Assembly: GCF_024970185.1 (NCBI RefSeq)
Contig: NZ_CP103965.1
Location: forward strand, 3,964,001-4,028,000
Reading direction: 5' to 3'
DNA length: 64,000 nt
DNA from: Pseudomonas sp. N3-W
GTDB lineage: Bacteria > Pseudomonadota > Gammaproteobacteria > Pseudomonadales > Pseudomonadaceae
The stretch's first letter is position 1. Every line of letters begins with the position of its first letter. The notes under the pieces are model-generated. The model had not been told where the DNA came from. It did not search any database and saw nothing but the letters and a program-made list of their open reading frames with translations. Positions 39,427 through 59,913 of this stretch are shown here, one piece after another. The translations under genes were made by a program, and so were the position numbers.

Positions 39427-39740
39427 TCAGTGAAGCGGTATGACTGTGCTGAGTTTACGAGTTCCGTCATCAAGAACCTGGAATGTGCTCTGGAAATTAG
39501 CAGCCTTACCCGATGGTCCCACAAACAAGGACTCTCTGACCTCAAATTTTCCGTACTGATTGGAGAAGGTGTTCATCACATTGCCGTCAGTTTTGGCAGA
39601 AAGGGTCAAGTGATCAGTCAGCATCTGACGACCAGCGGCATTGTCTGGAACACCAAGTCTCTTCATTTCGAGCGCAAGCTGATTTGAACGAGCGGCATTA
39701 TGGGAGTTACTAGCGACACGGCCGAACAGATAATCGAACT
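39427..39740 (-). other. C-terminal toxin-like region of the exoprotein
   Basis: The last about 103 residues (from KFDYLFGRVASNSHNAARSN to the STVIPLH end) follow a Gly/Pro-rich linker and differ in style from the repeats before. They have a conserved-looking core (HLTLSAKTDGNV, FEVRESLFVGPSGKAANF). This is where polymorphic toxin tips sit in CdiA-like proteins. I cannot name the activity. The pretoxin-like VEMFNRKLHKE motif, the equivalent of VENN, is about 420 residues from the end (40667-40693). Confidence 0.55.
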
Positions 39741-45700: not shown

Positions 45701-48700
45701 GTCACGCTTCCTGAGGCGGCGATGGTGCTGCTCATGTTGTTGAGGGTCTGAGCATTGATCAGGATATTCGCGCCACTGGAAAGGCCCGAGGCGGCACTGC
45801 TTCTGCTGACGGTCAAGCGGTCGACTTCATCGATCTGCCAATAGCCGTTCTGTTTCCCGCCATGGCGGAAGTCGCAGCCAAACATCGGGACCAGGTTGCA
45901 GTCACGTTCGGTGATGCTCACAGAACTTTTTTCATGCGCCGTGTAGTCCAGAACATCCCGGACGTTGTTGACGGTCATGGCGCTGATGGTCAGGTTTTGC
46001 GCGCTCTCGATGTTGCCGGAGCGGTTGTCCAGCAGGTCGGCCTTGTTCTGGCTGGCGTCCCGGGCGATCAGTACATTGCCCAGGCCATAGACCTGCGCAT
46101 ACGCGTTGGTAAAGCTGGCGGCCAGCAGTTGCATGTCACCGCCGCTGGAAATCAAGCCATTGCTGTTGAGCAACACGCCGGTACGCAAGGTCAGGTTTTC
46201 ACCGGTGGCCAGGGTGCCGGTATTGCTCACACCGCCTGCGGTCAGGGTCATGTTATTGCTGGAGGTCAGGCGACCGGCGTTGGTCAGTTGACCACCGACG
46301 TTGATCGTGGTGTCGCCACCGCCAGCGATGCTGGTGCCGCTGTTGAGGTTCAGTTGCCCTGCGCTCAGGCCCAGGTTGCCGAGGCTGCTGGCGCGGCCAT
46401 TGCCGCCGTAGGTGCCCCACAGGTTGAGGCTCAGGCTGCCATCACTGGCAAGCAGACCATCGTTGTTCCAGTTGCCGCCCGTGCCGACGAAGCTGCTGGA
46501 CGCCAACAACTGGCCGCCCGCCGTTTGGCTGAAATTATTCACGTTGACCGTCAGGCGCCCGGCCTGGATCACGCTGCTGTTGGTCCAGGTGTCGGCGTTC
46601 AACGTCAGGCCGCCTCGAGTCACCAGGGTGCCGCCGGCATTGCTGACATTGGGCATGGAGATATCAAAGGTGCCCGTGCCGACGTGCAGCAGTTTGCCGC
46701 CGATGTTGGCGAAGCCGGCTGCGTTGAGCGTCAGGTCAGTGTTGGCGGTTTCGACGGTGCCGTTGCGGTTGTCGAACAGGCCACCGATCTGGAATTGGGT
46801 TTTGCCGCTGGTGCCCAAGGCCCGCAGCTGGCCGGTCTGGTTGTCCAGGCTGGCGGCGCGCACGCTCAGGGTGTTGTCGCTTTCAATAATGCCCAATCGG
46901 TTGTTCAGGGCGCCATCGAGGCTGAGGTCGATCTGGCTGCCGGCGATTTGGCCGTCGTTGTCACCGCTGTTGTCGAAGTTGTTGCCGTGGACCTTCACCA
47001 GCCCCTTGGCGTAGAGCCCGCCGTTGCGGTTGTCGAAGTTGCCGCTGGCCGTCTCGATGACGGCATCGCCGCCCTGGGCCGAAATGCGTCCGCCGTAGTT
47101 GTCGATCCCGCCCAGTGCGCTGAGGTTCAGACGCTGGGCCTGGGTGATGCCGCCCTGGCGGTTGTTGGTCAGGTCGTAGCCGTTTTTCAACACGCCTACC
47201 ACGTGGGCATCCAGCGCGCCTTTGATGCTGGCGAGCGTACCGCCCCGGTTGTCGATGTTGGCGGCGCTCAGGCCAAGGTCGCCGTTCTGGGCAATGATTC
47301 GGCCACTCTGGTTATCGATATCACCGCCCACGGTGACGCCCATGCTGCCCAGGCTTTGCAGTGCGCCCTTGGCGTTGCCGAGGCTGGCGGCTTGCAGTTG
47401 CAGGTTGGCGTTCTGGCTGTAGATCAGGCCGTCGTCACTGTTCTGTACCGCACCGGTGCTGGTGAGGGTCAGGTTGTCATTGGCGGCGACGGTGCCACGG
47501 TGGCGGTTATCGAGGCCGCCGGTGAGCAGGGTCAACAAGCCCTGGCTCATCAACTGACCGCCCTGGTTGTTGATCTGCGTGCTGCGGCTGATGACCATCG
47601 GCCCACCACTGACGAGCTTGCCGTTGGTGTTGGTCAGGACGCCGAGCAGGTCGATATTCACCGCGCCGTTGCCGGCCAGGCTGCCGTTGCTGTTGTCCAG
47701 AGTGGTGCCGGTGAAGTTCAGGGCTTGCTGCGCGCTGATCGTTGCGCCATTGCTCAAGGCCATGGCTTGCAGGGTCAGGCTTGCACCGCTGTCAATCGAA
47801 CCGCCCTGGGCGTTGTTCAGCAGGCCGCTGACGCTCAGGCGCTGATGGGCGCCGCTGGAAATAACCCCGGCGACGTTGTCGAGACTGGCGGCGCTGACGC
47901 TCAGGTCATTGTTGCTGACCAGGGCGCCGGCGCTGCCGTTGAGCAGCGCGCCGCTGACGCTGACGTCGAGGTTGCCGCTGCGACTGGACAGGGTGCCGGT
48001 GTTGCGGTTGTCGAGGCTCGCGCCGTTGACGCTCAGGCCCTGCCAGCCGGACATCAGGCCGCCCTGGTTGAGCAGGGTGTCGCCGGTCAGGCCCAGTACA
48101 TTGCTGCTGATGAGTTTGCCGCCGGTGTTGTCCAGCGTACGTGCAGTGACGTTGAAACTCTGGTTGCTGAAGAGCTCGCCGTTCTGGTTGCTCAGGTCGC
48201 GCAGACGGCTGATGCTCAGCGGGCCTTTGGCGGTCAACGTACCGTTGCGGTTGTCGAGGTCGCCGCCGATCAGGTCAAGATGCACAGCGCCGTCACCCAA
48301 CAGGCGACCGCCGTTTTGGCTCAGTGCGCCGACGCTCAGGTCGATATCGCCCTTGGCCGACACTTCGCCGCCATTGCCGGAGTCCAGGCTGGCGGCGGTC
48401 AGGGTCATGCCGCCCTGGCTGTTGATCAGGCCCTTGGCGCTGTTGTTCAGGGCCATGGCGTTGAGGGTCAAGGCGCTGCCACCCAGCAGCACACCGCCCT
48501 GATTGTTCAGATCGGCGCTGCCGAGGCTCAGACGTTGGGCTGCGTTGATCGAGCCGCCACTCTGGTTATTCACCACACCGGCAACGTTCAGGGTCAGGTC
48601 ACTGCCGCTGGAGATCGCCCCTTCGTTGTTATTCAGGCTGCCGGCACCGACATCCAGCGCCGCCGCCGCGATCTGGCCCTTGAGGTTGTTCAGCGCCTGA

Positions 48701-51700
48701 TTGACGCGCAAGGTCAGGGCTTGCTTGCTGAGCAGCTTGCCGTTGCTGTTGTCCAGACTTGTGGCCGCCAGGCTGAACGCCTGGGCGCTGGAGATTTCGC
48801 CGTTCTGGTTGTTGACGCCATCGAGGTTGTCGAGTTGCAGCAACGGCGCGTTGATCAGGCCGTTCTGGTTGTTCAACTGGCCGTGATTCAGATCGAGCGC
48901 AAGGCGGGTATTGCTGAAGAGTTTGCCGCCCTGTTGGTCCAGGCCACTGACAGTGGCCGTGAGTGCATTGATACTGCCAATGCTGCCACTGTCGCGGTTG
49001 GTCACTTGGCCTGCGGTCAGAGCCAGCGTGTCGTCACTGTCCAGGCGCCCGGCCTGGCTGTTGTCCAGCGCGCCGGTGCTGACCAGCATCGAGGTTTTGC
49101 TTTTCAGGCTGCCTTTGTGGCTGTTGTCGAGGCTGGCGCTGTGCAGGGTCAGGCTGTTGCCGGTAATCAACGTACCGCCCTGGTTATGCACATCACCACG
49201 GGCCGTCAGCGTCAGTGCATCGGCGCTGGAGAACTTGCCGCCGGTGTTGCCGAGGTGGGTCGCCGTGACGTCAAGGGCGCCTTCACTGGCGATCAGGCCC
49301 TGGCCGTTTTCCAGGTCGCCGCTGAGGGTCAGGCGCATTTTCTGCAAGCCATACAGGCTGCCGCCCAGGTTGTTGAGGACGGCGCCATCGAGGCTCAGCA
49401 CGCCCTTGCCGTTGAGCAGCCCGTTGACGTTTTGCACCTGATCCAGGCTCAGGTTCAGGTCTTGCCCGGCAATCACCTGGCCGCTGTCGCTGTTATCCAG
49501 TTGTTGACCGGCCAGCGTCACCCCGCCGCCGCTGGACAGTTCGCCGCCACGGTTGTCCATCTGCCCGACGCTGAGTTTCAGCGCTTTTGTAGCGGCTACC
49601 AGACCGCTCTTGCGGTTGTCGAGGGTGTTGCCCGTGAGGTCGAGGGACGTGCTGGCGATCAACTTGCCGTTCTGGTTGTCCAGCGCACCGACGTTGGCGA
49701 CGATGTCACGCTTGCCGGAAATCGAGCCGTCGCGGTTGTCCAGGCTGGCGCTGGCGAGCAGCAAGGAGCCGTCGGCGATCATCACGCCATTGTGGTTGTT
49801 CAAGGCCTGAGTGACGCCCAGGTCGAGCAGTCCCCGGCTGCTCATCGTGCCGTTGCTGTTGTCCAGGCTGTCGCTGCGGCTGTCGATGGCCGCGCCGGTT
49901 ATCACCCCGACACTGTTGTTCAGCGCCTGTGCAATGCGCAGGGTCAACGAGCCCTGGTCGCTCAGCAGTTTGCCGTGGCTGTTGTCGAGGCTTTGTGCCG
50001 TCAGGTCGAAGGCTTGTGTGCTGGAGATTTCGCCATTCTGGTTGGCGACACCGTTGAGATTTTTAAGCAGCAAACTGCCCGGTGCGTTGATGTAACCGCC
50101 CTGGTTGTTCAGTTGGCCGTGGTTCAGGTCCAGGCTCAGCGCGGTCTTGCTGAACAGCTCGCCGCCCTGCTGATCAAGGCCGGTGACACTGGCGGTCAGG
50201 GTTTTTTCGCTGCTGATCGCGCCGCCCGCGCCGTTGCTGACCTGGGTGGCGTTCAGGTCCAGGGTATCGCTGCTGGTCATGCTGCCGTTCTGACTGTTGT
50301 CCACGGCGCCCGTGGTCATGCGCACCGCGCCAAGGCTGGCCAGATTGCCGCTGTGGCTGTTGTCCAGGCTGGCGCTGAGCAGGGTCATGCCGCTCTTGGA
50401 GTACAGGGTTGCGCCACGGTTGATCAGCGCGCCTTTACTGTTGATCGTCAGCAGGCCCAGGCTGGTCATTGCGCCGTTGCTGTTATCGACACTGGCGACC
50501 TGCGCGTTGAAACCGGCCTGACTTGCGATCGAGCCGTTGCTGTTGAGCAAGGCGTCGTCGAGGCGGATGTCCAGCGCGCTGCCACTCTCGATCGCGCCGC
50601 CGAGGTTATCCAGACGCGAACCCGTCAAGTGAATGGCGTCGTCGGCATGGATCATGCCCTTGGTCTGGTTGATCAATTGCGCCACGGTCAACTCAAGGCC
50701 CGCGCCCGAGATGATTTTGCCGCCATTGCTGTTGTCCAGCTGTTGGCTGGTCAGCTTCACCCCGCCCGTGCTGATGTCGGCGCCCGTGCTCGACAGTTCG
50801 CCAGCGCGGTTATCGATCTGATCGACATTGATGCTCAGCGCTTTTGCGCTGCCGACGGCACCGCGGTTGCGGTTATCCAGGCTGTTGCCGGTGAGGCTCA
50901 GGTTGCCCGCAGCCACCAGGGCGCCGCCCTGCTGAGTGAGGGTGTCGATGTTGGCCGTCAGGTCGGCCTGACTGGCGATGCGCCCGCCAGCGTTGGCGAC
51001 TTCGCGACTCTTGAGGGTCAACGGGCCGACGGCGCTGAGCAGGCCGCCGGTGTTGTCCAGGCGCGTGCCTTCGTAGCCCATGCCGGCCTTGCCGATCAGG
51101 TTGCCCTTGTCGCGGTTATCCAGTTGCCCAACCAGCAAGGTCAACGCCTGGTCAGCCTGAATCAGCCCGCCACGGTTGTCCGCCGAGTCGCCGTGCAGGG
51201 TCAGATAGCCCTTGCCGGCCACACTGCCGCCGCGGTTATCGAGGCTGCCGGTGGTCAGGTCGATGCCGCCAGTGGCGCGTACTTTGCCCAGTTCACGGTT
51301 GTCGAAAGCACCGCTGATATGCCCGGTCAGCACGCCGTCGGCAGCGAGCAAGGTGCCGGCTGCGCGGTTATCGAAGCTGGCAGCGGTGAGGCTCAGGTCA
51401 CCGCCCGAACCCAGGGTCGCGCCCTGGTTGATCAGCGCACCACTGAGGTCGATGCTCAGCCCGAGGTCGCCGACCACCCGGCCGGCCGTGTTGTCCAGAC
51501 TCGCTGCCTTGAGCGTTGAATTACCCGCGCTGGTCAGCGCGCCGTTGCGGTTGATGACGGCGCCACTTACGGTCAGGGTCATCTGCCCGTCGCTGCCAAA
51601 CGTGCCGTCGCTGTTGTCCAGACTGCCGGCCTGCACGTTCAGGCCGTTGGCCGAGACCAGCCCTTTGGCCGTGTTCAACACCTGATCGACACGCAGCATC

Positions 51701-54700
51701 AGCGCCTGCTGGCTGATGATTTTACCGGCGCTGTTGTCCAGGCTTGCCGCCGTGAAGCCAAAGGCCTTGTCGCTGGATATCTCGCCCTTCTGGTTAGCCA
51801 CGCCCTTGAGGTTGTTGAGCAGCAATTGCCCGGGGGTGCTGATCAGACCGCCCTGGTTGTTGAGTTGGCCGTTGTTCAGATCAAGGCTCAAGCGGCTATT
51901 GCTGAACAGCTTGCCGCCCTGTTGATCAAGACCGCTGACACTGGCGCTCAGCGCGCCGGCACTGGAAATGTTGCCGCCGGCGCCGTTGTTGAGTTGGCCA
52001 CTGCTCAGGTCGAGGCTGTCGCCGCTGATCAGGCTGCCGCCCAGGTTGCTCACGGTGCCGAGGCTGGTCAGTTTCAGGCCCCGGACGCTGGACAACGTGC
52101 CGCCATCGTTATTCACGCCGGCGCTGCTGAGCACGATGGCGCCGTCGCCCTTGAGCGCGCCCTGGTTGTTGAGCAACTGCTGGCTCAACGTCAGGCCCAG
52201 ACGGCCTTTGGCGTACAGATTGCCGCCCAGGCTGTTGTCCAGTTGCGCTGCATTTACCTGGACCCCGGCCTGGCCGGACAGTTGACCGTTGCGTTGATTG
52301 TTGAGCTGGCCGAGGGTCAGCTTGAGGTTGCCATTGGCGAGCAACTGACCGCCGTTGCTGTTGTCCAGCGTCGTGCCGGTCAGGGTCAGGTCGCTTTGCC
52401 CGGACAGGGTCCCGCCCTGATTGTCGAGGCGCTGCACGCCCAGATCCATGGCCTGGACAGCATTCAGCGAACCGCCCTGGCGGTTGTCCACGCGGTCGGC
52501 ATTGAGGCTGAGGGCTCCGGTGGTGCCTAGGCTGCCAGTGCGGTTGTCCAGCAACCCGGTGACAGCCAGATTGAGCCCGGCTTTGCTGACGATGCGGCCC
52601 TTGAGCTGGTTGTCCAGACCGGCGCTGGTGAGGGTCAGCAAGCCGTCCGAGGACAGCAGGCCGGCCTGGTTCATCAGTTGCCCGGCGATATTTGCGGTCA
52701 GGGCGGCACTGCTCAGCAGCGTGCCCTGGGTGTTATCGAGGCTCGCGCCCTGCACCGACAACAACTGGCCGGCGGTCATCGAACCGCTGGCGTTGTTGAT
52801 GCCGTTGCGCGCCACCAGCGACAGACGGGTGTCGGCGGTCATCTGGCCGTGACGGTTGTCCAGGTCAGCGACTTGCACAGTCAGATCACGGGCGCCGAGT
52901 TTTCCGCCCTGATTGTTCAGGCCACCGGCGAGCAACAGGCTCAAACCGCTGCCGGCGTTCACGCTGCCGGACTGGTTGTTCAGGCTCTGAGCCTGCAGAT
53001 CAATGGCCGCCGCGGCAATCTGTGCGCGGGTATTGTCCAGCGCCTGTGCGATCCGCACGACCAGCGCTTGTTCGGACAGCAGTTTGCCGTCGGTGTTGTC
53101 GAGACTGTCAGCCGTCAGATTGAAACCCAGCGTGCTGGAAATCTCGCCCTGGCGGTTATTGACGAGGCCCAGGTTGCTCAACAGCAACTGGCCCGGCGCG
53201 TTGATCAGACCGCCCTGGTTGTTCAGCAGGCCGTGGTTCATGTCCAGGCTCAGGCGCGTGGCGCTGAACAGGTGACCGCCATCGTGCTGATCGAGCCCGG
53301 TGACGTGAGCGTTGAGTGCCTGGGTGCTGCTGATCTGCCCGGCCAGGCCGTTGTTCACTTGCGTGGCGCTGAGGTCAAGGGTCTGGTCGCTGGAAAGTTG
53401 TCCGCCCTGGTTCTGCAAGGCACCGGTAGCGATGCTCACTGCGCCTGCACCGTGAATCACGCCCCGCTGACTGTTATCGAGCGTGCCAGTGGTCAGGTTC
53501 AGCTGTGCCCCGCTGTTGATCCGCCCGCCCTGAGTTGTCAGCGCGCCGGTATTGTTGAGGCCCAAGCGCCCCAGGCCGGCAATGCTGCCGCCGCTGCTGT
53601 TGTCGAGATTGGCGGTGTTCAAGTCCAGCGTGGACTGGCTGGACAAGACACCGGTGGTGTTGATCAGGCTGTTGGCGTTGACCAGCAGTTGCTGGCTGGC
53701 CACCTGGCCTTTGAGATTGTTCAGGGTCTGGTTGATCAGCAGCGTCAGACTTGCATCACTGAGCACCTTGCCAGCCGTGTTGTCGAGGCTGTTGGCCGCC
53801 AACGTAAAGCCCGTATGGCTGGATATTTCGCCGTTCTGGTTGAGCACCGTATTGAGGTTGTTCAGCAGCAGCGCGCCGGGCGTGGTGATCAATGCGTTCT
53901 GGTTGTTGAGCAGGCCGTTGTTCAGGTCGAGGCTCAGGCCGGTGTTGCTGCTGAGCTGGCCCCGGTCATGTTGATCGAGCCCGGTGACGCTGGCCGTCAG
54001 GGCCATGGCGCTGGCGATGCGCCCGCCTTCGCTGTTGTTCACCTGGCCTGCGGTCAGGCTCAGCGTGTTACTGCTGACGAGTTGACCGCCCTGCTGGTTG
54101 CCGAAGGTGCCGGCGTTGATCACCGCCGCACCGCTGCTTTGAATGTTGCCGCGCTGGTGATTGTCCAGTGCACCCTTGGCGACGATGCCCAGCGTGCCCT
54201 GGCTGCTGATCGAGCCCTGGTTGCTGTTGTCCAGCGACGCCACCTTGAGCTGCAGATTTTGCGGGGCCACCAGGCGTCCGCCCTGATTGTTCAGGGCGCC
54301 GCTGGCGTTGATGTCCAGCGTGTTGCCCGCCATCACCAGGCCGGCGACGTTGTCCAGCGCAGCCACCCGCAGGTTGACGTTGCTCAGGCTCGACAGCTCG
54401 CCCGCGCGGTTATTCAGATAACCCACGGCAGCCGTGAGTTGACCGTTACTGGTCACCAGACCGGATTGGGCATTGAGCAGTTGATCGGCATTGAGGTTCA
54501 GCGTGCCGCTGCTCAGGAGTCGACCGTGGTTCTGGTTGTCCAGCGTCCCGGCAGCCACTTGCAGCTGTTGCTGCGCGCTCAGGGTGCCGCCCTGGTTGCT
54601 GGCGGTCTGTGCCGTGTTGACGGTGAGGTTGCGACTGGCGACAACGCTGTGCCCGTTGTTGTTGAGATTTTGCGCCGTGAGGCTGATATCGCCGCTGCTG

Positions 54701-55848
54701 TTGCGGCTGTTATCGCTGTTCACACCGGCTTCAATGACGCCGTTGTTGCTCAGTTGACCGCCCGCGTTCAGGGTGATGCTGTCCCGCGCGGCGAGGGTTT
54801 GCTGGCTGGCCAGGTCGCCCTGGGTCTGCACATTCAATGCGGTGCCGGCATAGACCGGTCCCTGGGCATTGAGGCCGGCGGCTTTGACATTGACCGCGCC
54901 GTTGGCGGCCGACGTCTCGGCCAGGCTCAGTTGACCGTTGGCGTCGAGTTGGATGTCGCCACCACTGGCGATCAATTTGCCGTCGAGTTTCACCCCGACA
55001 CCCGCCTCGGTACCCATCAGCCTGATCGCGCCGGCGTACATGCCGCCCAGCGAAGAGGAGTCGATGGCCAGTTGAGGTTTGGCGCTGCCGTCGTCGGCTC
55101 TTGCAGTGGCGTTGAGCGTCTGTGCGTTGACGTCGTTGCGACCGGCAATGATCGTCAGGTTTTTCGCCTGAATCTCGGCGTTGATTTTCGCGCTGCGGGT
55201 GATGATTTCGAAGCTGTCGACGTTGCTCGCATTCAGCCCCGCGCCGTCGATGGAGACGCTGCCCTGATCGACCTGATAATGGTCGACTCGGCCGCCGTCG
55301 AGTACCGGCTTACCGGTGGTGAGTGTGACGCGCGGGGTGTTGATGAAGCCGCAACCGTTGCAGGTGATGCCATACGGGTTGGCGACGATCACGCGGGCCG
55401 ACTGCCCCGCCACTTCGGTATAACCGCGCAACTGGCTCGGGTTGCCGCCGACCACTTCGTTGAGGATGGTTTGTGCCGCGACCCGGTTGGTCAGGTTCGG
55501 GTTGCCGACGATGATGCCGCCCAACTGCGTCGCGCCGGTTTGCCCCGCGACGTTGTTGAGGATCACGCCTTGGGTGCCGACGTTGTAATCGTGGAACTGG
55601 TTATGCGACAGCCCGGTGCCATTGGGCGTGGCGATGTTGATGATCGGCACGCCGTTGCCCGCCTGACCGAGGCTGGTGTTCGGATTGGCCACCACAATCC
55701 CGTCCGCCTGCGCCCACACCGGTTGCCAGAACATGACGTTCGCCAACAGGAACGCCAGCCCGCGCTTGGGCATACCCCAGAAGTGCTCACAGGGTTTTAC
55801 GGCAGCAGCAGGTTGGCCGGCCAGGAAGGTCAGGTGACGAATGTCCAT
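39427..55848 (-). CDS. Giant filamentous haemagglutinin/CdiA-type TpsA exoprotein
   Basis: 5473 residues. A long Sec signal peptide (MDIRHL... to QPVWAQA, about 47 residues) leads into the TPS secretion domain, with NPYGITCNGCGFINTPRV near residue 156, the hallmark recognised by the TpsB partner. Residues about 400-3100 are tandem FHA-type beta-helix repeats (LDNxxG patterns). A second repeat region with GRDLTINAAENTFS-type motifs follows (about 3900-4500). A pretoxin segment ends in VEMFNRKLH (about 5052), and the variable C-terminal toxin-like part comes last. The ATG at 55848 is used; a TTG seven codons earlier is possible. It lies 24 bases after the tpsB stop. It probably mediates adhesion and contact-dependent inhibition. 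Confidence 0.93.
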   Translation of the reverse strand: MDIRHLTFLAGQPAAAVKPCEHFWGMPKRGLAFLLANVMFWQPVWAQADGIVVANPNTSLGQAGNGVPIINIATPNGTGLSHNQFHDYNVGTQGVILNNVAGQTGATQLGGIIVGNPNLTNRVAAQTILNEVVGGNPSQLRGYTEVAGQSARVIVANPYGITCNGCGFINTPRVTLTTGKPVLDGGRVDHYQVDQGSVSIDGAGLNASNVDSFEIITRSAKINAEIQAKNLTIIAGRNDVNAQTLNATARADDGSAKPQLAIDSSSLGGMYAGAIRLMGTEAGVGVKLDGKLIASGGDIQLDANGQLSLAETSAANGAVNVKAAGLNAQGPVYAGTALNVQTQGDLASQQTLAARDSITLNAGGQLSNNGVIEAGVNSDNSRNSSGDISLTAQNLNNNGHSVVASRNLTVNTAQTASNQGGTLSAQQQLQVAAGTLDNQNHGRLLSSGTLNLNADQLLNAQSGLVTSNGQLTAAVGYLNNRAGELSSLSNVNLRVAALDNVAGLVMAGNTLDINASGALNNQGGRLVAPQNLQLKVASLDNSNQGSISSQGTLGIVAKGALDNHQRGNIQSSGAAVINAGTFGNQQGGQLVSSNTLSLTAGQVNNSEGGRIASAMALTASVTGLDQHDRGQLSSNTGLSLDLNNGLLNNQNALITTPGALLLNNLNTVLNQNGEISSHTGFTLAANSLDNTAGKVLSDASLTLLINQTLNNLKGQVASQQLLVNANSLINTTGVLSSQSTLDLNTANLDNSSGGSIAGLGRLGLNNTGALTTQGGRINSGAQLNLTTGTLDNSQRGVIHGAGAVSIATGALQNQGGQLSSDQTLDLSATQVNNGLAGQISSTQALNAHVTGLDQHDGGHLFSATRLSLDMNHGLLNNQGGLINAPGQLLLSNLGLVNNRQGEISSTLGFNLTADSLDNTDGKLLSEQALVVRIAQALDNTRAQIAAAAIDLQAQSLNNQSGSVNAGSGLSLLLAGGLNNQGGKLGARDLTVQVADLDNRHGQMTADTRLSLVARNGINNASGSMTAGQLLSVQGASLDNTQGTLLSSAALTANIAGQLMNQAGLLSSDGLLTLTSAGLDNQLKGRIVSKAGLNLAVTGLLDNRTGSLGTTGALSLNADRVDNRQGGSLNAVQAMDLGVQRLDNQGGTLSGQSDLTLTGTTLDNSNGGQLLANGNLKLTLGQLNNQRNGQLSGQAGVQVNAAQLDNSLGGNLYAKGRLGLTLSQQLLNNQGALKGDGAIVLSSAGVNNDGGTLSSVRGLKLTSLGTVSNLGGSLISGDSLDLSSGQLNNGAGGNISSAGALSASVSGLDQQGGKLFSNSRLSLDLNNGQLNNQGGLISTPGQLLLNNLKGVANQKGEISSDKAFGFTAASLDNSAGKIISQQALMLRVDQVLNTAKGLVSANGLNVQAGSLDNSDGTFGSDGQMTLTVSGAVINRNGALTSAGNSTLKAASLDNTAGRVVGDLGLSIDLSGALINQGATLGSGGDLSLTAASFDNRAAGTLLAADGVLTGHISGAFDNRELGKVRATGGIDLTTGSLDNRGGSVAGKGYLTLHGDSADNRGGLIQADQALTLLVGQLDNRDKGNLIGKAGMGYEGTRLDNTGGLLSAVGPLTLKSREVANAGGRIASQADLTANIDTLTQQGGALVAAGNLSLTGNSLDNRNRGAVGSAKALSINVDQIDNRAGELSSTGADISTGGVKLTSQQLDNSNGGKIISGAGLELTVAQLINQTKGMIHADDAIHLTGSRLDNLGGAIESGSALDIRLDDALLNSNGSIASQAGFNAQVASVDNSNGAMTSLGLLTINSKGALINRGATLYSKSGMTLLSASLDNSHSGNLASLGAVRMTTGAVDNSQNGSMTSSDTLDLNATQVSNGAGGAISSEKTLTASVTGLDQQGGELFSKTALSLDLNHGQLNNQGGYINAPGSLLLKNLNGVANQNGEISSTQAFDLTAQSLDNSHGKLLSDQGSLTLRIAQALNNSVGVITGAAIDSRSDSLDNSNGTMSSRGLLDLGVTQALNNHNGVMIADGSLLLASASLDNRDGSISGKRDIVANVGALDNQNGKLIASTSLDLTGNTLDNRKSGLVAATKALKLSVGQMDNRGGELSSGGGVTLAGQQLDNSDSGQVIAGQDLNLSLDQVQNVNGLLNGKGVLSLDGAVLNNLGGSLYGLQKMRLTLSGDLENGQGLIASEGALDVTATHLGNTGGKFSSADALTLTARGDVHNQGGTLITGNSLTLHSASLDNSHKGSLKSKTSMLVSTGALDNSQAGRLDSDDTLALTAGQVTNRDSGSIGSINALTATVSGLDQQGGKLFSNTRLALDLNHGQLNNQNGLINAPLLQLDNLDGVNNQNGEISSAQAFSLAATSLDNSNGKLLSKQALTLRVNQALNNLKGQIAAAALDVGAGSLNNNEGAISSGSDLTLNVAGVVNNQSGGSINAAQRLSLGSADLNNQGGVLLGGSALTLNAMALNNSAKGLINSQGGMTLTAASLDSGNGGEVSAKGDIDLSVGALSQNGGRLLGDGAVHLDLIGGDLDNRNGTLTAKGPLSISRLRDLSNQNGELFSNQSFNVTARTLDNTGGKLISSNVLGLTGDTLLNQGGLMSGWQGLSVNGASLDNRNTGTLSSRSGNLDVSVSGALLNGSAGALVSNNDLSVSAASLDNVAGVISSGAHQRLSVSGLLNNAQGGSIDSGASLTLQAMALSNGATISAQQALNFTGTTLDNSNGSLAGNGAVNIDLLGVLTNTNGKLVSGGPMVISRSTQINNQGGQLMSQGLLTLLTGGLDNRHRGTVAANDNLTLTSTGAVQNSDDGLIYSQNANLQLQAASLGNAKGALQSLGSMGVTVGGDIDNQSGRIIAQNGDLGLSAANIDNRGGTLASIKGALDAHVVGVLKNGYDLTNNRQGGITQAQRLNLSALGGIDNYGGRISAQGGDAVIETASGNFDNRNGGLYAKGLVKVHGNNFDNSGDNDGQIAGSQIDLSLDGALNNRLGIIESDNTLSVRAASLDNQTGQLRALGTSGKTQFQIGGLFDNRNGTVETANTDLTLNAAGFANIGGKLLHVGTGTFDISMPNVSNAGGTLVTRGGLTLNADTWTNSSVIQAGRLTVNVNNFSQTAGGQLLASSSFVGTGGNWNNDGLLASDGSLSLNLWGTYGGNGRASSLGNLGLSAGQLNLNSGTSIAGGGDTTINVGGQLTNAGRLTSSNNMTLTAGGVSNTGTLATGENLTLRTGVLLNSNGLISSGGDMQLLAASFTNAYAQVYGLGNVLIARDASQNKADLLDNRSGNIESAQNLTISAMTVNNVRDVLDYTAHEKSSVSITERDCNLVPMFGCDFRHGGKQNGYWQIDEVDRLTVSRSSAASGLSSGANILINAQTLNNMSSTIAASGSVTANATNIVNQGVQAQEITTTNFYVSYVKQIFAARQMAKDFNAKNSPTPSATVEADLSAFTGFVEGGRSSGSTKTTNTDGQSYDAVIQAGGNVSLNATNNIENGVRRPYYAYVAAGRNKADTGSGSAYSTPIYVNSQLPPNLAQQQVNPLALPGFSLPTGQNGLFRLSGQGGGNQQATQVNTAPQSWSMSSATVSTAQRQQELPTVQARSVQIADVAQVVASDRKLVQITAPTAASNVTGSAINITAPVDNAGNVQLTGHDHTDAAITQVGAVHVEASTQPTVATGPDLSLPTSLPARQDPVVTVTSPVTAPVVPVAPVVNASISAPVAVPGAVTAVPASTAVASQSVARVQGLPDTSARSNPQKYLIETNPVLTDLKQFMSSDYLLANLGYDPDKSAKRLGDGFYEQKLIQQAVVARTGQRFIDGQTSDEKLFKYLMDNAITSKQQLNLSVGVTLTSEQVAALTHDIVWMENATVNGESVLVPVLYLANANNRLAPTGALIAGNDVSLIAGKDLTNAGTLRATNNLSATAGNDLVNSGLIEAGNRLDLLAGNNIVNKAGGIIAGRDVSMTAQRGDVINERTITTHDSSNGVASERRDFTDSAARIEAAKALSVSAGRDINITGGQVESGTDMQLNAGRDVNIAAAQVSNSTVNDSQHSNSNITQLGARISAGQDLSVVAGRDIAAIASQIDAKRDLSLSATENLNLSSAADEQHSLLKVKKLTAQEDHVSQVMTELSAGSNVKLSAGQSLTAIASRITAGDEAYLVAGDKLDLLAAQDSDYSLYNKTKKSSSGKKTRLDEVASTTSVASVVTSGGDSTLLAGKDMLIKGSEIAADKGNVQLVAGNDVQIVAATESNSARHDSSSSKSSWGGLKSSKVQDQLAETQTKAVGSVISGNTVNVTAKRDATITGSSLVSTEDLTVQAGRDLTINAAENTFSRDEFHKEKNRDLSGILTANKLGLDDITGNQHLSVSGQNHTGKSSQTTLTGSTIGSSEGNVSLTSGRELNVIASDLVSTKNMSLIGSKVTIAAGMETSNQSSTDKSNSLAVGRVVGGSIVDTVNTIRSSVKAANSADDPRLKAVKLAQAAMAFNDLGGMAGGVAGASSDYGNKQGSGGSGSLIKIGTELANTHSKSTSDYTSQTAKQSSLNAGKNLLIVADGGVPGTAGDIHVVGSTLKAADTVLLAKDNITLESAQNTAKWANDSTHNKTAIGASFNLGQQNGFTLDLGASIAKSMGTGSSVTQVNTTLDTGSLSLHSGKDTTLAGAQVRADSIKALIDGNLNITSRQDSEIQKSKQGTAGFGGSICVPPFCYGAPVAVTASLSAGNMNSEYKAVTDQSGLFAGKGGYDLDVGKNTTLQGAVIASEASADKNLLSTDRLLVSDIKNTSEISSKSAGISVSYGSNTGSSLGGSVPLALSDSDHSSTRSAVSDGTIVVRNADGANDLVGLNRDTKNANQKLDKPDEKAMQERIDLIQSTVALSKSVIDTVANSQQQAAAERGKAATTDEEKAAARADYDSWNVGGNKRIMADVAAGFIAASLGGVGGSTAIGIVANTTSNDAFKKVGDFANEQKRNATDTATQAAWAEGGAARVLLHALVGAAMGLSSGSAASGALGAGASAALMPAIGDVLGKSGLTEREQSSFSTLIAAGLGVAAGASGGASGAITGGNSAVGVEMFNRKLHKEQETPLLKKKAEELEATRGKPRSSARWEDLLLMASGAEVDAVDLTRLTKLMKLATGNDPESESFAQDMGVAYDVVAKLAAQKIPLTWSDGSQILANGAPVYAFNSTKGQFNDSTLFDAAGNYGPGAVYQQWRQYGQDQTTQHGNELPSISTSVSEVADAAERLSALAGKGVLSVSIIDDALLSMTGVRSGKVVIDAVLEVMAKRQAAREAAADAVKGVVSTEKTALPAGYREGSSAGAAFNETGGLPDGYRRVINTKTGNTEVLGSDGNLYFETSNGLRPKAGGNLAGLVEAEKGIAGAKGLEIAPGKFDYLFGRVASNSHNAARSNQLALEMKRLGVPDNAAGRQMLTDHLTLSAKTDGNVMNTFSNQYGKFEVRESLFVGPSGKAANFQSTFQVLDDGTRKLSTVIPLH
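48720..53995 (-). repeat. Five long super-modules inside the exoprotein gene
   Basis: A block of about 75 residues, LDQxxGxLFS...LSLDLNxGxLNNQ followed by xPGxLLLxNL...NQxGEISS...SLDNxxGK, recurs five times. The LDQ codons lie at about 53968, 53284, 51919, 50167 and 48931. The first step is 684 bases and the second 1365, about twice that. A sixth, weaker copy lies near 48250. These sit on top of the basic FHA repeats and suggest growth by unequal duplication. Confidence 0.8.
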
Positions 55849-55872
55849 TTCAGAATCTCGGGCGGGCAAAAA

Positions 55873-57579
55873 TTAAAGGAAGAAATCCAGACGGAAATAG
55901 ATCGGCGCTTCACGCTCGGTCAGCGCGGCCGGTCGCTCCAGGGAATGGGCGAACGTCACGCTGGCAGCCAGGTGCTGGCCCTTGGCGAACAACTCCAGCG
56001 AATTGCTGGACATGCGCCCGTGTTGCTCGCCGTTGTAGCGATCATCACTGATCACGCCCTGGTCGTAGCCCAGGCTGGTGCCGTATTCGGCGAACACCGG
56101 GCGCAGCCATTCAACGTTGACCGGGCGGGTCCAGCGCAGGTCGTTGCGCCAGTAGCCGCCGCTGTCGCCGGACAGCGACTGGTCCTTGTAGCCACGAATC
56201 GACGACTGCCCGCCGAGGCTGGTGCGTTGCGGGCTGAACAGCACGTCTTCACTGTGTTGACCGGTCATCAGGCTGCTGAAACTGAACGACTCGCCCCACA
56301 GTTTGAACGGTTGCAGGTAGCTCGCCGTGGCGGTGTATTTGCGGTAACGCGCATCTGGATCAGAGGGACCGGGATGGCCGTTGCCCTGGGCATCGAACGC
56401 GCCGATGCCTTGCTGCATGCCCAGGTCCAGGTTGACGAACGCGCTGCCGATCCGGCGACCGTGGTTGATGCCGAACTGCGCTTCGCTGATGCGATTGCTG
56501 CTCTGCTTGAGCTTGCTCTCTTCGATGAAATTGTTGGTGCGCAGGTACGACAGACCGGTGCTGAGCGAGGTCTTGCTCATGGCGTCGCGGTAGATGACGC
56601 GCTCGGCACGCAACTGATGGTTTTCGCTGTCGCCGGTCTGCTTGAAGTTGTAGCCATTGGAGGCGATCTGCGAGCGGTAGTCGCTCTGGTTATAGGTGTA
56701 ATTGAAGGTCCACCAGCCCCACGGCAGGCTGTAGTTGAGCATCGCGTTGCTGGAGGTGTGCTGGTGATCGCTCATCGCATCGTGGCCACCGCGAAGATTC
56801 AACTGATCGGCCAGACCCAGTGGGCTGTCCCAGTCAAAGGTGGTGCCCCACTGCTGCTCACCGGTGCTGCGCTGGCCGTCGTTACTGCGCGACAACCCGG
56901 CTCGCCAGGGCGTCTGCGGGGTGTTCTTGACCAGCACTTCACTGCCACCGACGTTCTTGCCCGGCGACAACTCCATCTGCGCCTGATTCGACGGCAAACG
57001 GTTGAGCTGATCGACCATCTGCTCGATCTCGCGCAGGTTGACCAGCTCGCCGGCCTTGCCGGGAAACGCCATGGCCAGCTCGCGCTCCGACAGCTTGCTG
57101 CCATCGGCGCCCTTCAAGCCTTCGAGCCGGCCTTCGACCACCAGCACTTTCAGATGCCCGGCGGACAAATCCTGCTGCGGCAGGTAGGCACGGCTGGTGA
57201 CCAGGCCTTTCTCGATGTAGCGGTCGGTGATGACTTTCAGCAGTTCATTGAGCTGGGTGACGCCCAGGCACTGGCCGATATACGACTTGAGCAGGCGCTG
57301 CTGCTCAGCGGCGGACAGACTGTCGGCGCCGCTGAGTTCGATGTCTTTGATGGGAAAGCAACGGCTGTCGGCAGGGGCTGCCGGAGTCGTTGGTCTGGCT
57401 TCCTTGCCAGGCAGATCCTTGAGTTCTTCCAGACGACGGCTTTGCTCTTCGAGCAAGCGATTCTGACGGTCGCGGATAAGGTCGGTGTCGCCGGGGTTGG
57501 TGGCGGCGTAAGCAAGATTCAGTGGAGAAAGGCACAGCAAAGCCAGGCACAACCTCGCCACGAGGGCGGGTGGGTACAT
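55873..57579 (-). CDS. TpsB outer-membrane transporter (FhaC/ShlB/CdiB family)
   Basis: A 568-residue two-partner secretion pore. A signal peptide (about 25 residues, ending LAYA) is followed by an N-terminal helix region (LLEEQSRRLEELKDL). Two POTRA domains come next (FPIKDIELSGADSLS...; RAYLPQQDLSAGHLKVLVVEG). A 16-strand barrel follows, with the conserved QSSIRGYKDQSLSGDSGGYW loop near residue 450, and the protein ends with YFRLDFFL, its terminal aromatic-rich strand. The start follows GAGGGATCGAAC. It exports the giant TpsA encoded 24 bases downstream. Confidence 0.95.
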   Translation of the reverse strand: MYPPALVARLCLALLCLSPLNLAYAATNPGDTDLIRDRQNRLLEEQSRRLEELKDLPGKEARPTTPAAPADSRCFPIKDIELSGADSLSAAEQQRLLKSYIGQCLGVTQLNELLKVITDRYIEKGLVTSRAYLPQQDLSAGHLKVLVVEGRLEGLKGADGSKLSERELAMAFPGKAGELVNLREIEQMVDQLNRLPSNQAQMELSPGKNVGGSEVLVKNTPQTPWRAGLSRSNDGQRSTGEQQWGTTFDWDSPLGLADQLNLRGGHDAMSDHQHTSSNAMLNYSLPWGWWTFNYTYNQSDYRSQIASNGYNFKQTGDSENHQLRAERVIYRDAMSKTSLSTGLSYLRTNNFIEESKLKQSSNRISEAQFGINHGRRIGSAFVNLDLGMQQGIGAFDAQGNGHPGPSDPDARYRKYTATASYLQPFKLWGESFSFSSLMTGQHSEDVLFSPQRTSLGGQSSIRGYKDQSLSGDSGGYWRNDLRWTRPVNVEWLRPVFAEYGTSLGYDQGVISDDRYNGEQHGRMSSNSLELFAKGQHLAASVTFAHSLERPAALTEREAPIYFRLDFFL

Positions 57580-57651: not shown

Positions 57652-57731
57652 ATTCTGTATCAATTCTGACAATATTGGCGACGAACGGTCGTACGACATC
57701 AGTCAAGAAATTGACTACGCCACAAAATAAC

Positions 57732-57835
57732 TGTGGCAAGGGAGCTTGCTCCCGCCAGGCTGTTGAGCAGTCCCCCTCTTTTCGAAAAGAGAGGGGCCGC
57801 TTCGCGCCCCAGCGGGAGCAAGCTCCCTCGCCACA
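57732..57835. repeat. REPIN of the TGTGGCAAGGGAGC type
   Basis: Inverted TGTGGCAAGGGAGCTTGCTC palindromes flank a spacer with a long CCCCTCTTTTCGAAAAGAGAGGGG hairpin-like palindrome (about 57773-57796). It is the same REP type as 5815-5945 and separates the TPS locus from the methionine-rich peptide operon. Confidence 0.8.
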
Positions 57836-57895
57836 GGTTTAACGTTCGATTGTTGAAGGGATCAGGACCTTTTTGCTGACTGCGACATGCTGTCC

Positions 57896-58192
57896 TTACT
57901 TCATGGAGCCTTCTGCCCCCATGCTGTCGTTGGACATATTGTCTTTCTTCATCGCGTCCTTGGACATTGCGTCTTTCTTCATCGCGTCCTTGCTCATGCT
58001 GTCTTTCTTCATGGTGTCCTTGCCCATGGAGTCCTTTTTCATTGTGTCTTTTTTCATACTGTCCTTGGACATGCTGTCTTTGGACATCGAGCCGTTGCTC
58101 ATGCTGTCGTTGCTCATGGTATCGGCGGCGTACACGCTGGCGACGCCCATGGCCAGGCACAGGGACAGTACGGTGGTGGCTAGCTTTTTCAT
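57896..58192 (-). CDS. Methionine-rich MXKDX-repeat periplasmic peptide
   Basis: 98 residues. A clear signal peptide (MKKLATTVLSLCLAMGVASV, cleavage after YA) is followed by a 76-residue mature part. That part is almost entirely pentapeptide repeats of the form M-[SKG]-[KN]-D-[STAN], with 15 methionines at strict five-residue spacing. It matches the MXKDX repeat family. It follows the YedY/MsrP-like gene by 75 bases on the same strand. A Met-rich, hydrophilic secreted peptide next to a methionine-sulfoxide-reductase-like enzyme suggests a recyclable oxidant sink. Confidence 0.88.
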   Translation of the reverse strand: MKKLATTVLSLCLAMGVASVYAADTMSNDSMSNGSMSKDSMSKDSMKKDTMKKDSMGKDTMKKDSMSKDAMKKDAMSKDAMKKDNMSNDSMGAEGSMK

Positions 58193-58267
58193 GGTGCAGT
58201 TCCTTTTGGAGATCAGGTTGCGAATGGACGCAGCGCGGGCTGCGCGGTGGTTATCGGGGTGCGTGCA

Positions 58268-59047
58268 TCAGCTGCCACCGAACCAGTTGTAGCCCTGGTC
58301 TTCCCAGTAGCCACCGCTGTAGATGTTGCTGACGAAAATCGCCTGAATGTGTTTAGGGTTCTTGTAGCCCAGCTTGGTGGGCATGCGCAGCTTCATCGGG
58401 AAACCGTACTGACGCGGCAGGACGGCGCCGTCGTAGGTCAGGGTCAACAGGGTTTGCGCATGCAGCGCGGTGGCCATGTCGATGCTGGTGTAGTAGTCGT
58501 CGGCGCATTTGAAGCCAACGTATTTGGCATCGGTGTCGGCACCCACGCGTCTGAGGAAATCACTGAAGCGCACCCCGCCCCAGCGGCCGATGGCGCTCCA
58601 GCCTTCGACGCAAATGTGGCGGGTGATCTGCTCGGTCTGGGCCATGGCGCGCAGGTCCGCCAGTGCCCAGCTGCGTTTGTCGGCGACCAGGCCGGTGACT
58701 TCCAGGCGATAGCTGTCTTGCGCGACGACGGGGGCTTCGTCAATGCCGTAAAAGGCATTGAAGGGAAATGGCCGGGTAATCATCGATTCGGGGTAGGTCG
58801 GCGCCATCGCGTTGGGATTGAACAGCCAGCCCTGCACCCGGTCGTTGAAGCGCGACATGGACGACAGCGCGGTTTCGACGCTGTCGTTGTCGCTGATATT
58901 GCAACCGGACAACATCGCCACGCCGCCGAGGGTCAGGCCCCGCAGCAGGAACGAACGCCGGGAGCGGTCTTCGATGCGCGGTGCCAGCACTTTTCTGGCA
59001 TCGGCCAGGATCGACGCTTCATCCAGTCCTTCAATGCGCTTTTTCAT
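58268..59047 (-). CDS. YedY/MsrP-like molybdopterin oxidoreductase (sulfite-oxidase fold)
   Basis: 259 residues. The N-terminus has a twin-arginine-type signal (RSRRSFLLRGLTLGGVAM) ending in a lipobox-like MLSGC. The sulfite-oxidase fold follows, with the molybdenum-ligand Cys in RHICVEGWSAIGRWGG (about residue 125) and FPMKLRMPTKLGYKNPKHIQ near the end. The start at 59047 overlaps the stop of the cytochrome gene. It lacks the cytochrome and dimer domains of true sulfite oxidases. The likely role is periplasmic reduction of methionine sulfoxide or a related S-oxide. Confidence 0.9.
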   Translation of the reverse strand: MKKRIEGLDEASILADARKVLAPRIEDRSRRSFLLRGLTLGGVAMLSGCNISDNDSVETALSSMSRFNDRVQGWLFNPNAMAPTYPESMITRPFPFNAFYGIDEAPVVAQDSYRLEVTGLVADKRSWALADLRAMAQTEQITRHICVEGWSAIGRWGGVRFSDFLRRVGADTDAKYVGFKCADDYYTSIDMATALHAQTLLTLTYDGAVLPRQYGFPMKLRMPTKLGYKNPKHIQAIFVSNIYSGGYWEDQGYNWFGGS

Positions 59048-59670
59048 ACCGACTCCTTGTGACCGACCAGCATCGCCCATAACGTTTTCGGCACCAGCAA
59101 CACCATCACCAAGTGCACCACGACAAACGCCATCAGCAGCGCCATCGCAATGAAGTGCACCTGCCGCGCCCCTTCATAACCGCCCAGCAATTCACGCAAC
59201 AACGGGAACTGCACCGACTTCCACAGCACCAGCCCGGACAGCACCATCATCGTGATGTCGAGCATGACAAACAGGTAGGCAAAGCGCTGGACCTGGTTGT
59301 AATGGCTGAGGTCGGCATGTCCCAGCCGCCCTCTTAGCGCTGCCCACAGGTCGTGCAGGACGCCTTTGGGTGAGACCGGCAGAAAGCGCCGGAACAGGCG
59401 ACCGCTGGCCAGATTGATGATCAGATAAATGAGGCCGTTGACGGCCAGGAACCACATCGCCGCGAAGTGCCATTGCAGCGCACCGCCGAGCCAGCCGCCG
59501 AGCGTGACCGATGACGGAAAACTGAAACCGTAGAGCGGCGAGGCGTTGTAGATACGCCAGCCGCTGGTGACCATCACCAACACCGCCAGGGCGTTGAGCC
59601 AGTGGGTCAGGCGCAGCCAGCGTGGATGGCTGTTTCGGGTAATGCCGGAAGAAGCAGGCGCCTGCGACAT
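59044..59670 (-). CDS. b-type cytochrome (cytochrome b561 family), electron donor
   Basis: A 208-residue inner-membrane protein with four or five helices and histidines placed for two b haems (RLTHWLNALAVLVMVTSGWR; LQWHFAAMWFL; VHFIAMALLMAFVVVHLVMV). The ATG at 59670 is preceded by TTGGAGCCGATC. It is the first gene of the operon, and its stop overlaps the start of the molybdoenzyme gene by 4 bases. It most likely passes quinol electrons to that enzyme, the role of YedZ/MsrQ-type partners, although this is the b561 rather than the ferric-reductase type. Confidence 0.9.
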   Translation of the reverse strand: MSQAPASSGITRNSHPRWLRLTHWLNALAVLVMVTSGWRIYNASPLYGFSFPSSVTLGGWLGGALQWHFAAMWFLAVNGLIYLIINLASGRLFRRFLPVSPKGVLHDLWAALRGRLGHADLSHYNQVQRFAYLFVMLDITMMVLSGLVLWKSVQFPLLRELLGGYEGARQVHFIAMALLMAFVVVHLVMVLLVPKTLWAMLVGHKESV

Positions 59671-59814
59671 GATCGGCTCCAATTGATTGTTGTTGGGTCC
59701 AAGTATAGGAACCGACTGATCGCCAAATCCTCACGTAAAGTTAAATTAAACGTGATAACTGCTCCCCACCGTTGGTTTGGGTTGGAACAGGATCATTTGA
59801 TCAATGCAGAACCC

Positions 59815-59838
59815 TGTGGGAGCAAGCTCGCTCCCACA
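59815..59838. repeat. Single short REP palindrome
   Basis: TGTGGGAGC-AAGCTC-GCTCCCACA between the divergent cytochrome and methyltransferase genes. Confidence 0.7.
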
Positions 59839-59913
59839 TTGGTTTTGGGTTGCCTGTGAGGAATGCATTTAGGGTTAAAATGCCGCCCCTTCTCTCACCA
59901 CCGACCCGACCCG

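Follow-up and report, generated by a model that had tools for sequence, protein, structure and literature searches.

In Azospira suillum, a SigF/NrsF system combined with YedYZ and the peptide MrpX was reportedly described by Melnyk in 2015. In the available parts of other sources, this system consists, like the locus considered here, of a methionine-rich peptide, an MsrP-like enzyme and the enzyme's partner (PMC4623255, PMC10746228). The bcrXQP genes of Brucella (with BcrS/AbcS) similarly encode an MxKDx peptide and a putative methionine sulfoxide reductase pair; they are induced by HOCl and contribute to resistance, as far as the accessible text goes (PMC8315932). In that account the pair is described as MsrQ/MsrP homologues under ECF sigma control, and the printed BcrS sites agree with the form GTAACC-N16-CGAA (PMC8315932).

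Escherichia coli utilises a different regulator. According to the passages available, the two-component system OrhK/OrhR activates c3566-c3568, which encode a cytochrome, an MsrP-like enzyme and a methionine-rich peptide; OrhR binds a c3566 promoter fragment, with a potential site TCACA-N15-TGTGA upstream of the -35 box, and c3566 and c3567 aid resistance to tert-butyl hydroperoxide (PMC8550376). Since OrhR activates c3566-c3568 there, two-component control of such a cassette is already known, and it was rejected as a novelty of the present case (PMC8550376).

The locus compared here belongs to Pseudomonas sp. N3-W and lies in a stretch of 64,000 nucleotides, the whole of which is called the window. 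It is a three-gene operon with every gene on the minus strand, and it has the following features:

59718..59760, minus strand: conserved operator AGTTATCACGTTTAATTTAACTTTACGTGAGGATTTGGCGATC; two sites in the genome at up to 3 mismatches, reversed control 0
59731..59755, minus strand: inverted repeat TCACG-N15-CGTGA within the operator; the sole such repeat in the 64-kb window
59702..59707, minus strand: tentative -10 element TATACT adjoining the operator, identified by eye; partly conserved among relatives
59044..59670, minus strand: b-type cytochrome gene (PF01292), the putative electron donor to the molybdoenzyme
58268..59047, minus strand: MsrP-like molybdoenzyme gene (PF00174); product Tat-exported, a probable lipoprotein
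58946..58960, minus strand: Tat twin-arginine motif RRSFL (within SRRSFL); R30, R31 and F33 invariant in 30/30
58901..58912, minus strand: lipobox LSGC (MLSGC) with Cys49, behind the Tat motif; C49 invariant in the 9/9 and 30/30 alignments
58610..58612, minus strand: Cys146, putative Mo ligand, within CVEGWS, the aligned counterpart of CVEAWS in E. coli YedY
57896..58192, minus strand: MxKDx methionine-rich peptide gene (TIGR02953), 98 aa
58127..58192, minus strand: putative signal of the peptide, 22 residues, cut after VYA, placed by eye

The cytochrome and molybdoenzyme genes overlap by 4 bases and a gap of 75 bases precedes the peptide gene; the molybdoenzyme start was placed by eye at 59047, behind AAGGAG. 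Gene coordinates and family matches bear out the co-directional trio, with this overlap and gap, that a first-pass annotation of the DNA had proposed. The b-type cytochrome of that annotation is confirmed as a PF01292 protein (82.3 bits, cut-off 30.1). His23, His68, His172 and His186 are identical in all 69 aligned cytochromes, the window's sequence included, and His118 in 99% of them. The MsrQ model (NF003831) gave no match to the cytochrome at E 0.1, and a PDB search with it returned a single match, unrelated, at E 0.022.

The molybdoenzyme matches PF00174 at 107 bits (cut-off 24), and its AlphaFold model, used for fold class only, has a sulfite-oxidase fold at medium confidence (mean pLDDT 77.1). 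In this fold and in its CVExWS active-site motif it resembles the enzyme of E. coli MsrPQ (YedYZ). It differs in scoring 74.4 bits on the MsrP equivalog model (NF003767), against a curated cut-off of 207, in being a probable lipoprotein, and in having a PF01292 cytochrome as its partner. The earlier label of YedY/MsrP-like therefore holds as far as MsrP-like goes, given CVEGWS and the fact that the nearest solved sequence in a PDB sequence search is E. coli YedY (1xdq, E 1.8e-17), while the score falls below that set for MsrP itself. A separate, canonical MsrPQ pair is encoded elsewhere in the genome; the operator is absent from the 5.5 kb around it, where the best match has 10/23 mismatches. 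A contig scan with the enzyme returned at least 595 stretches, at least 588 of them relatives; the best 80 were kept, so this set is biased to near kin. Because a lipobox lies behind the Tat motif and is present in 80/80 of these best 80 relatives (LTGC in 40, LSGC in 39, LVAC in 1), the molybdoenzyme is probably a membrane-anchored lipoprotein. A loose Tat pattern is found in 77 of the same best 80 of at least 588. Neither the lipobox nor the operator ahead of the cytochrome gene had been noted at first pass.

The peptide, rich in lysine and aspartate, is an MxKDx protein by TIGR02953 (113.4 bits, curated cut-off 41). Its mature part of 76 residues contains 15 Met, consecutive ones being 5 residues apart in thirteen gaps and 6 apart in the other, so that the spacing of every fifth residue noted at first pass is exact in 13/14 gaps. 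Fourteen of the 15 fall in one register, a number that 0/100,000 residue shuffles reached (best shuffle, 10). Viral contigs scanned with the peptide patterns gave zero matches. Since an exported methionine-rich peptide is encoded together with a b-type cytochrome and an enzyme of PF00174, the window holds a methionine-sink cassette, of the kind known as yedYZ-mrpX in Azospira, bcrXQP in Brucella and c3566-c3568 in E. coli. The proposal that this is the Pseudomonas version of the MrpX-type cassette is supported.

Co-occurrence was the homologue check suggested at first pass, and it came out in favour of the cassette both in Pseudomonas and beyond. An enzyme relative at 63% identity or more defines clade A, 29 of the 199 Pseudomonas genomes. 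The peptide scores over its cut-off in 28/29 of these and in 2/170 others (Fisher p about 1e-30, ignoring kinship). Counting against the association are one clade A genome that lacks a peptide (G019) and two other genomes in which a peptide occurs without the cassette. Clade A is not one clean clade, because its G121 and G079 members sit elsewhere on the enzyme tree. Among the best 80 of at least 588 relatives, which were chosen by enzyme alone, 76 have a peptide match in the locus with a model built from Pseudomonas peptides, in two cases (L179 and L196) not directly downstream. Within this best-80 set the genes stay next to each other in Pseudomonas as well as in beta- and enterobacteria. 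The cassette covers at least 80% of the query in 345/5426 E. coli genomes, and an enzyme relative covers at least 80% of its length in 223/72,556 plasmid records. From its presence on E. coli plasmids and chromosomes and on Rahnella plasmids, the cassette looks mobile.

A second set of enzyme relatives, set B (58-61% identity, 27 Pseudomonas genomes), has the enzyme and the cytochrome; no MxKDx peptide was found in the 20 set B loci examined. The cytochrome-molybdoenzyme pair of these loci (L063-L082) is paralogous, and close to it are another OmpR-family regulator and a sensor, with 33-36% and 27-32% identity, respectively, to the OrhR-like regulator and sensor described below. In several of the loci read in detail, a protein of roughly 200 residues that begins like a signal sequence is encoded ahead of the pair; a Pfam scan of one such protein returned no match. 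One Pseudomonas genome (G178) carries a second, decayed cassette (L105), in which the cytochrome gene is broken across two frames and the peptide gene is interrupted by a stop.

Lying ahead of the cytochrome gene, the inverted repeat of the window fits TCAC[AG]-N15-[TC]GTGA. E. coli 536, whose system we take to be the OrhK/OrhR c3566-c3568 system of the published work, has a repeat of exactly the TCACA-N15-TGTGA form, located between its regulator gene and its cytochrome gene. An automatic scan for promoters reported neither a sigma-70 site at the operon nor TATACT. An ECF promoter before the operon was rejected, since GTAACC-N16-CGAA is absent from 59651-59900. The 31-base operator core has exactly two sites in the 6.67-Mb genome at up to 3 mismatches (control 0). 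The first precedes the operon. The second is 1.4 Mb away, between msrB and the gene of an OrhR-like regulator at 5.44 Mb.

This regulator is the best match in the N3-W genome of the Pseudomonas regulators that flank cassettes (77% identity, next 41%). Compared with an E. coli plasmid copy it is 63% identical (next 39-40%; a one-way best match), and it is 59.7% identical over 233 residues to its counterpart in E. coli 536. The operator block separates the regulator and sensor genes from a divergently oriented set made up of msrB, a DsbD/thioredoxin-like gene and msrA. The MsrB protein has a Tat signal and scores 166.7 bits (cut-off 113); MsrA scores 175.7 bits (cut-off 108), with a signal sequence judged by eye; the membrane part of the thioredoxin-like protein, of DsbD type, lies just below its Pfam cut-off (23.3 vs 27.1). 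In the sensor a predicted periplasmic domain is bounded by two predicted membrane segments; Met76, the one Met of this domain that is identical in 26/26 sequences, is a possible oxidation sensor.

In gene order and repeat form N3-W is like the E. coli OrhK/OrhR-c3566-c3568 system, insofar as the published account extends. Unlike that system, its regulator is unlinked, its operator is common to MsrB, the DsbD/thioredoxin-like protein and MsrA, and no hemolysin link is seen in N3-W (PMC8550376, available passages). The regulator is thus not beside the cassette but 1.4 Mb from it, whereas the E. coli cassette adjoins its regulator; this distance counts against the explanation preferred below, as does the score of the molybdoenzyme under the MsrP cut-off.

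Response regulator and sensor genes diverge from the operator block at three clade A loci (L100, L101 and L106) and at L108, where the peptide occurs without the enzyme. The peptide gene adjoins msrA at L100, L106 and L108, and L101 has the order peptide-msrB-msrA. At L108 (genome G023) the MxKDx peptide gene lies behind the operator, next to the regulator pair and msrA, and no molybdoenzyme is present. The long operator pattern, at up to 3 mismatches, is found in 51/199 Pseudomonas genomes (reversed control 0); the 19 with two sites all belong to clade A. Thirty site loci were inspected, of which 5 precede a cassette and 25 adjoin the regulator gene, with msrB across from that gene at 23 of the 25 (one by short match only). 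A lone peptide gene in another genome (G156, L107), with neither enzyme nor regulator adjoining, also has the block (3/23 mismatches).

Upstream of the clade A cytochrome genes the conserved block is plain in 21/26 aligned sequences, L103 having been left out of the alignment. Several loci count against a uniform operator. The block of L102 has diverged (6/23 mismatches), and the operator is absent at clade A loci L097, L098, L099 and L103 and at the decayed copy L105, where the best matches have 8-9/23 mismatches. L097, L098, L099 and L105 share a different upstream block.

Outside Pseudomonas, control of the cassette appears to be of two kinds. Sixty non-Pseudomonas loci fall within the best 80 of at least 588 relatives. 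A regulator (68-79% identity) is divergent from the cytochrome gene in 30 of the 60, SigF with NrsF is present in 10 (a SigF match of 33% identity at L171 was left out of this count), and both classes occur together in 0/60. The remaining 20 have neither regulator; some of these loci are incomplete, so that absence there is weak.

The promoters differ accordingly. In the loci linked to the response regulator the operator core has 0-6/23 mismatches, in 30/30 cases below the locus's own minimum of 30 single-base shuffles; in the SigF-linked loci it has 9-11/23, which is chance level, in 10/10. The weakest response regulator-linked match (L162) is on the other strand and counts against the pattern. 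The exact inverted repeat occurs in 26/30 response regulator-linked loci, the four without it again counting against, vs 0/10 SigF-linked loci. GTAACC-N16-CGAA, sought on either strand of the regulator-cytochrome interval, is found in 0/30 and 10/10, respectively. The repeat is also present in 20/20 Pseudomonas loci of the best-80 set and in three Pandoraea loci without an adjacent regulator. The 80 loci together (938,715 bases) contain 53 copies, 49 of them at response regulator-linked, Pseudomonas or Pandoraea promoters. The loci seen thus pair one sink-and-repair cassette with either an ECF sigma factor or a two-component regulator, never with both, and either class can be recognised from the cassette promoter.

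On the enzyme tree (77 rows), 9 of the 10 SigF-linked rows cluster in a single supported group (96/95), which has 20 rows in all and zero that are response regulator-linked; the window enzyme groups with other Pseudomonas, outside it. Neither regulator class has one simple origin, since the labels need several changes on the tree (9 for the response regulator, 6 for SigF). The N3-W operon does not belong to the SigF/NrsF class and is in this respect unlike Azospira: a search for the anti-sigma factor NrsF (PF06532), with all candidates scored, found none in the genome, and the GTAACC-N16-CGAA promoter is missing before the operon. NrsF scores over cut-off in at least 33/199 Pseudomonas genomes and at least 5/29 of clade A, with part of the candidates scored. 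The first-pass expectation that regulation differs from the Azospira ECF system is therefore upheld, the genome-wide search having covered the anti-sigma factor, with an OrhR-type regulator and operator found instead.

The sequence itself shows which genes are present, their export signals, an operator common to both loci and, in relatives, the regulator linked to the cassette. On our reading the operon is, quite likely, an oxidant-induced periplasmic methionine sink with its repair pair, run by an unlinked OrhK/OrhR-type system that probably also drives MsrB and MsrA. From these observations we infer regulator binding, induction, electron flow and the chemistry on the peptide. An OrhK/OrhR-type sensor would detect oxidants through its predicted periplasmic domain, and the OmpR-family regulator would bind TCACG-N15-CGTGA beside the operon promoter. 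The Met side chains of the exported peptide would take up oxidant and become Met sulfoxide, which would be reduced back by electrons passing from quinol through the cytochrome to the membrane-anchored molybdoenzyme. Because the same regulator likely switches on MsrB, the DsbD/thioredoxin-like protein and MsrA, repair may run on two electron supplies. For periplasmic methionine protection in Pseudomonas, this provides a concrete regulator, operator and target list. Among the matches listed in a search of open-licence literature, there was no Pseudomonas form, unlinked regulator, operator shared with MsrAB or two-class promoter split.

The first-pass annotation had also called the molybdoenzyme a dedicated repair enzyme. 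The repair role is retained, but since the MsrA and MsrB genes share its operator, the molybdoenzyme is probably not the peptide's sole partner. It is tempting to extend this to a dispersed periplasmic methionine-redox regulon, run by one unlinked OrhR-type regulator, in which the peptide is a shared buffer recharged from both the quinone pool and cytoplasmic thiols and is not a dedicated molybdoenzyme substrate; we regard this as a real possibility, a little short of an even chance. If true, oxidant absorbed anywhere in the periplasm could be cleared by either the quinone or the thiol route. The Pseudomonas case makes it testable whether the peptide depends on one reductase or on quinol- and thiol-driven enzymes acting as a shared pool.

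An Azospira-like operon acting mainly as a hypochlorite-specific defence is rather unlikely. It would agree with the HOCl induction of Brucella bcrXQP (PMC8315932, as far as available), and a review, in its accessible part, cites NaClO induction of yedY in P. fluorescens biofilms, which yedY being unstated (PMC7464077). However, the N3-W regulator is of the OrhR class, which in the available text was tested with peroxide in E. coli, and not of the SigF/NrsF class (PMC8550376).

We consider it very unlikely that the peptide is a sponge for copper or another metal, with the redox pair protecting it or serving metal handling. Methionine-rich periplasmic proteins can bind Cu(I), and the methionine-rich stretch contains His in 39/77 peptides and Cys in 19/77, the window's peptide being counted; however, the mature peptide of the window itself has zero His and zero Cys. 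Moreover, two methionine sulfoxide reductases (A and B) share the operator, the regulator reaches 162.9 on the heavy-metal regulator model, whose cut-off is 279.2, and no metal transporter was found among the window neighbours scanned. In Caulobacter, dichromate and cadmium induce SigF-dependent genes, and a YedY-like gene is induced by dichromate, partly via SigF, which would favour a metal role, but loss of SigF left metal resistance not lowered, in the part of the source available (PMC3511200).

Least probable of all, and hardly credible, is that the molybdoenzyme acts as an oxidase, of sulfite or otherwise, with the peptide an unrelated neighbour: PF00174 includes sulfite oxidases, SorA and SoxC models match below their cut-offs and Foldseek puts sulfite dehydrogenase first by a small margin (YedY nearly tied), but the enzyme has CVEGWS as in YedY, its best PDB sequence match, and not the CAGNRR found at the Mo-ligand Cys of the plant and chicken sulfite oxidases compared, the adjacency to the peptide is kept in the best 80 of at least 588 relatives from Pseudomonas, beta- and enterobacteria, and E. 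coli c3567 mutants are peroxide-sensitive (PMC8550376, available passages).

Some observations concern the surroundings of the operon. No Rfam family reached its gathering score between 57500 and 60200. Behind the peptide gene (57731-57837) is a long imperfect inverted repeat, which by eye looks REP-like and is possibly a terminator. Just downstream of the operon is a two-partner secretion locus (39427-57579), which consists of a large ORF and a ShlB/FhaC-type transporter; the ORF, of 5480 residues, has by eye the look of a filamentous hemagglutinin.
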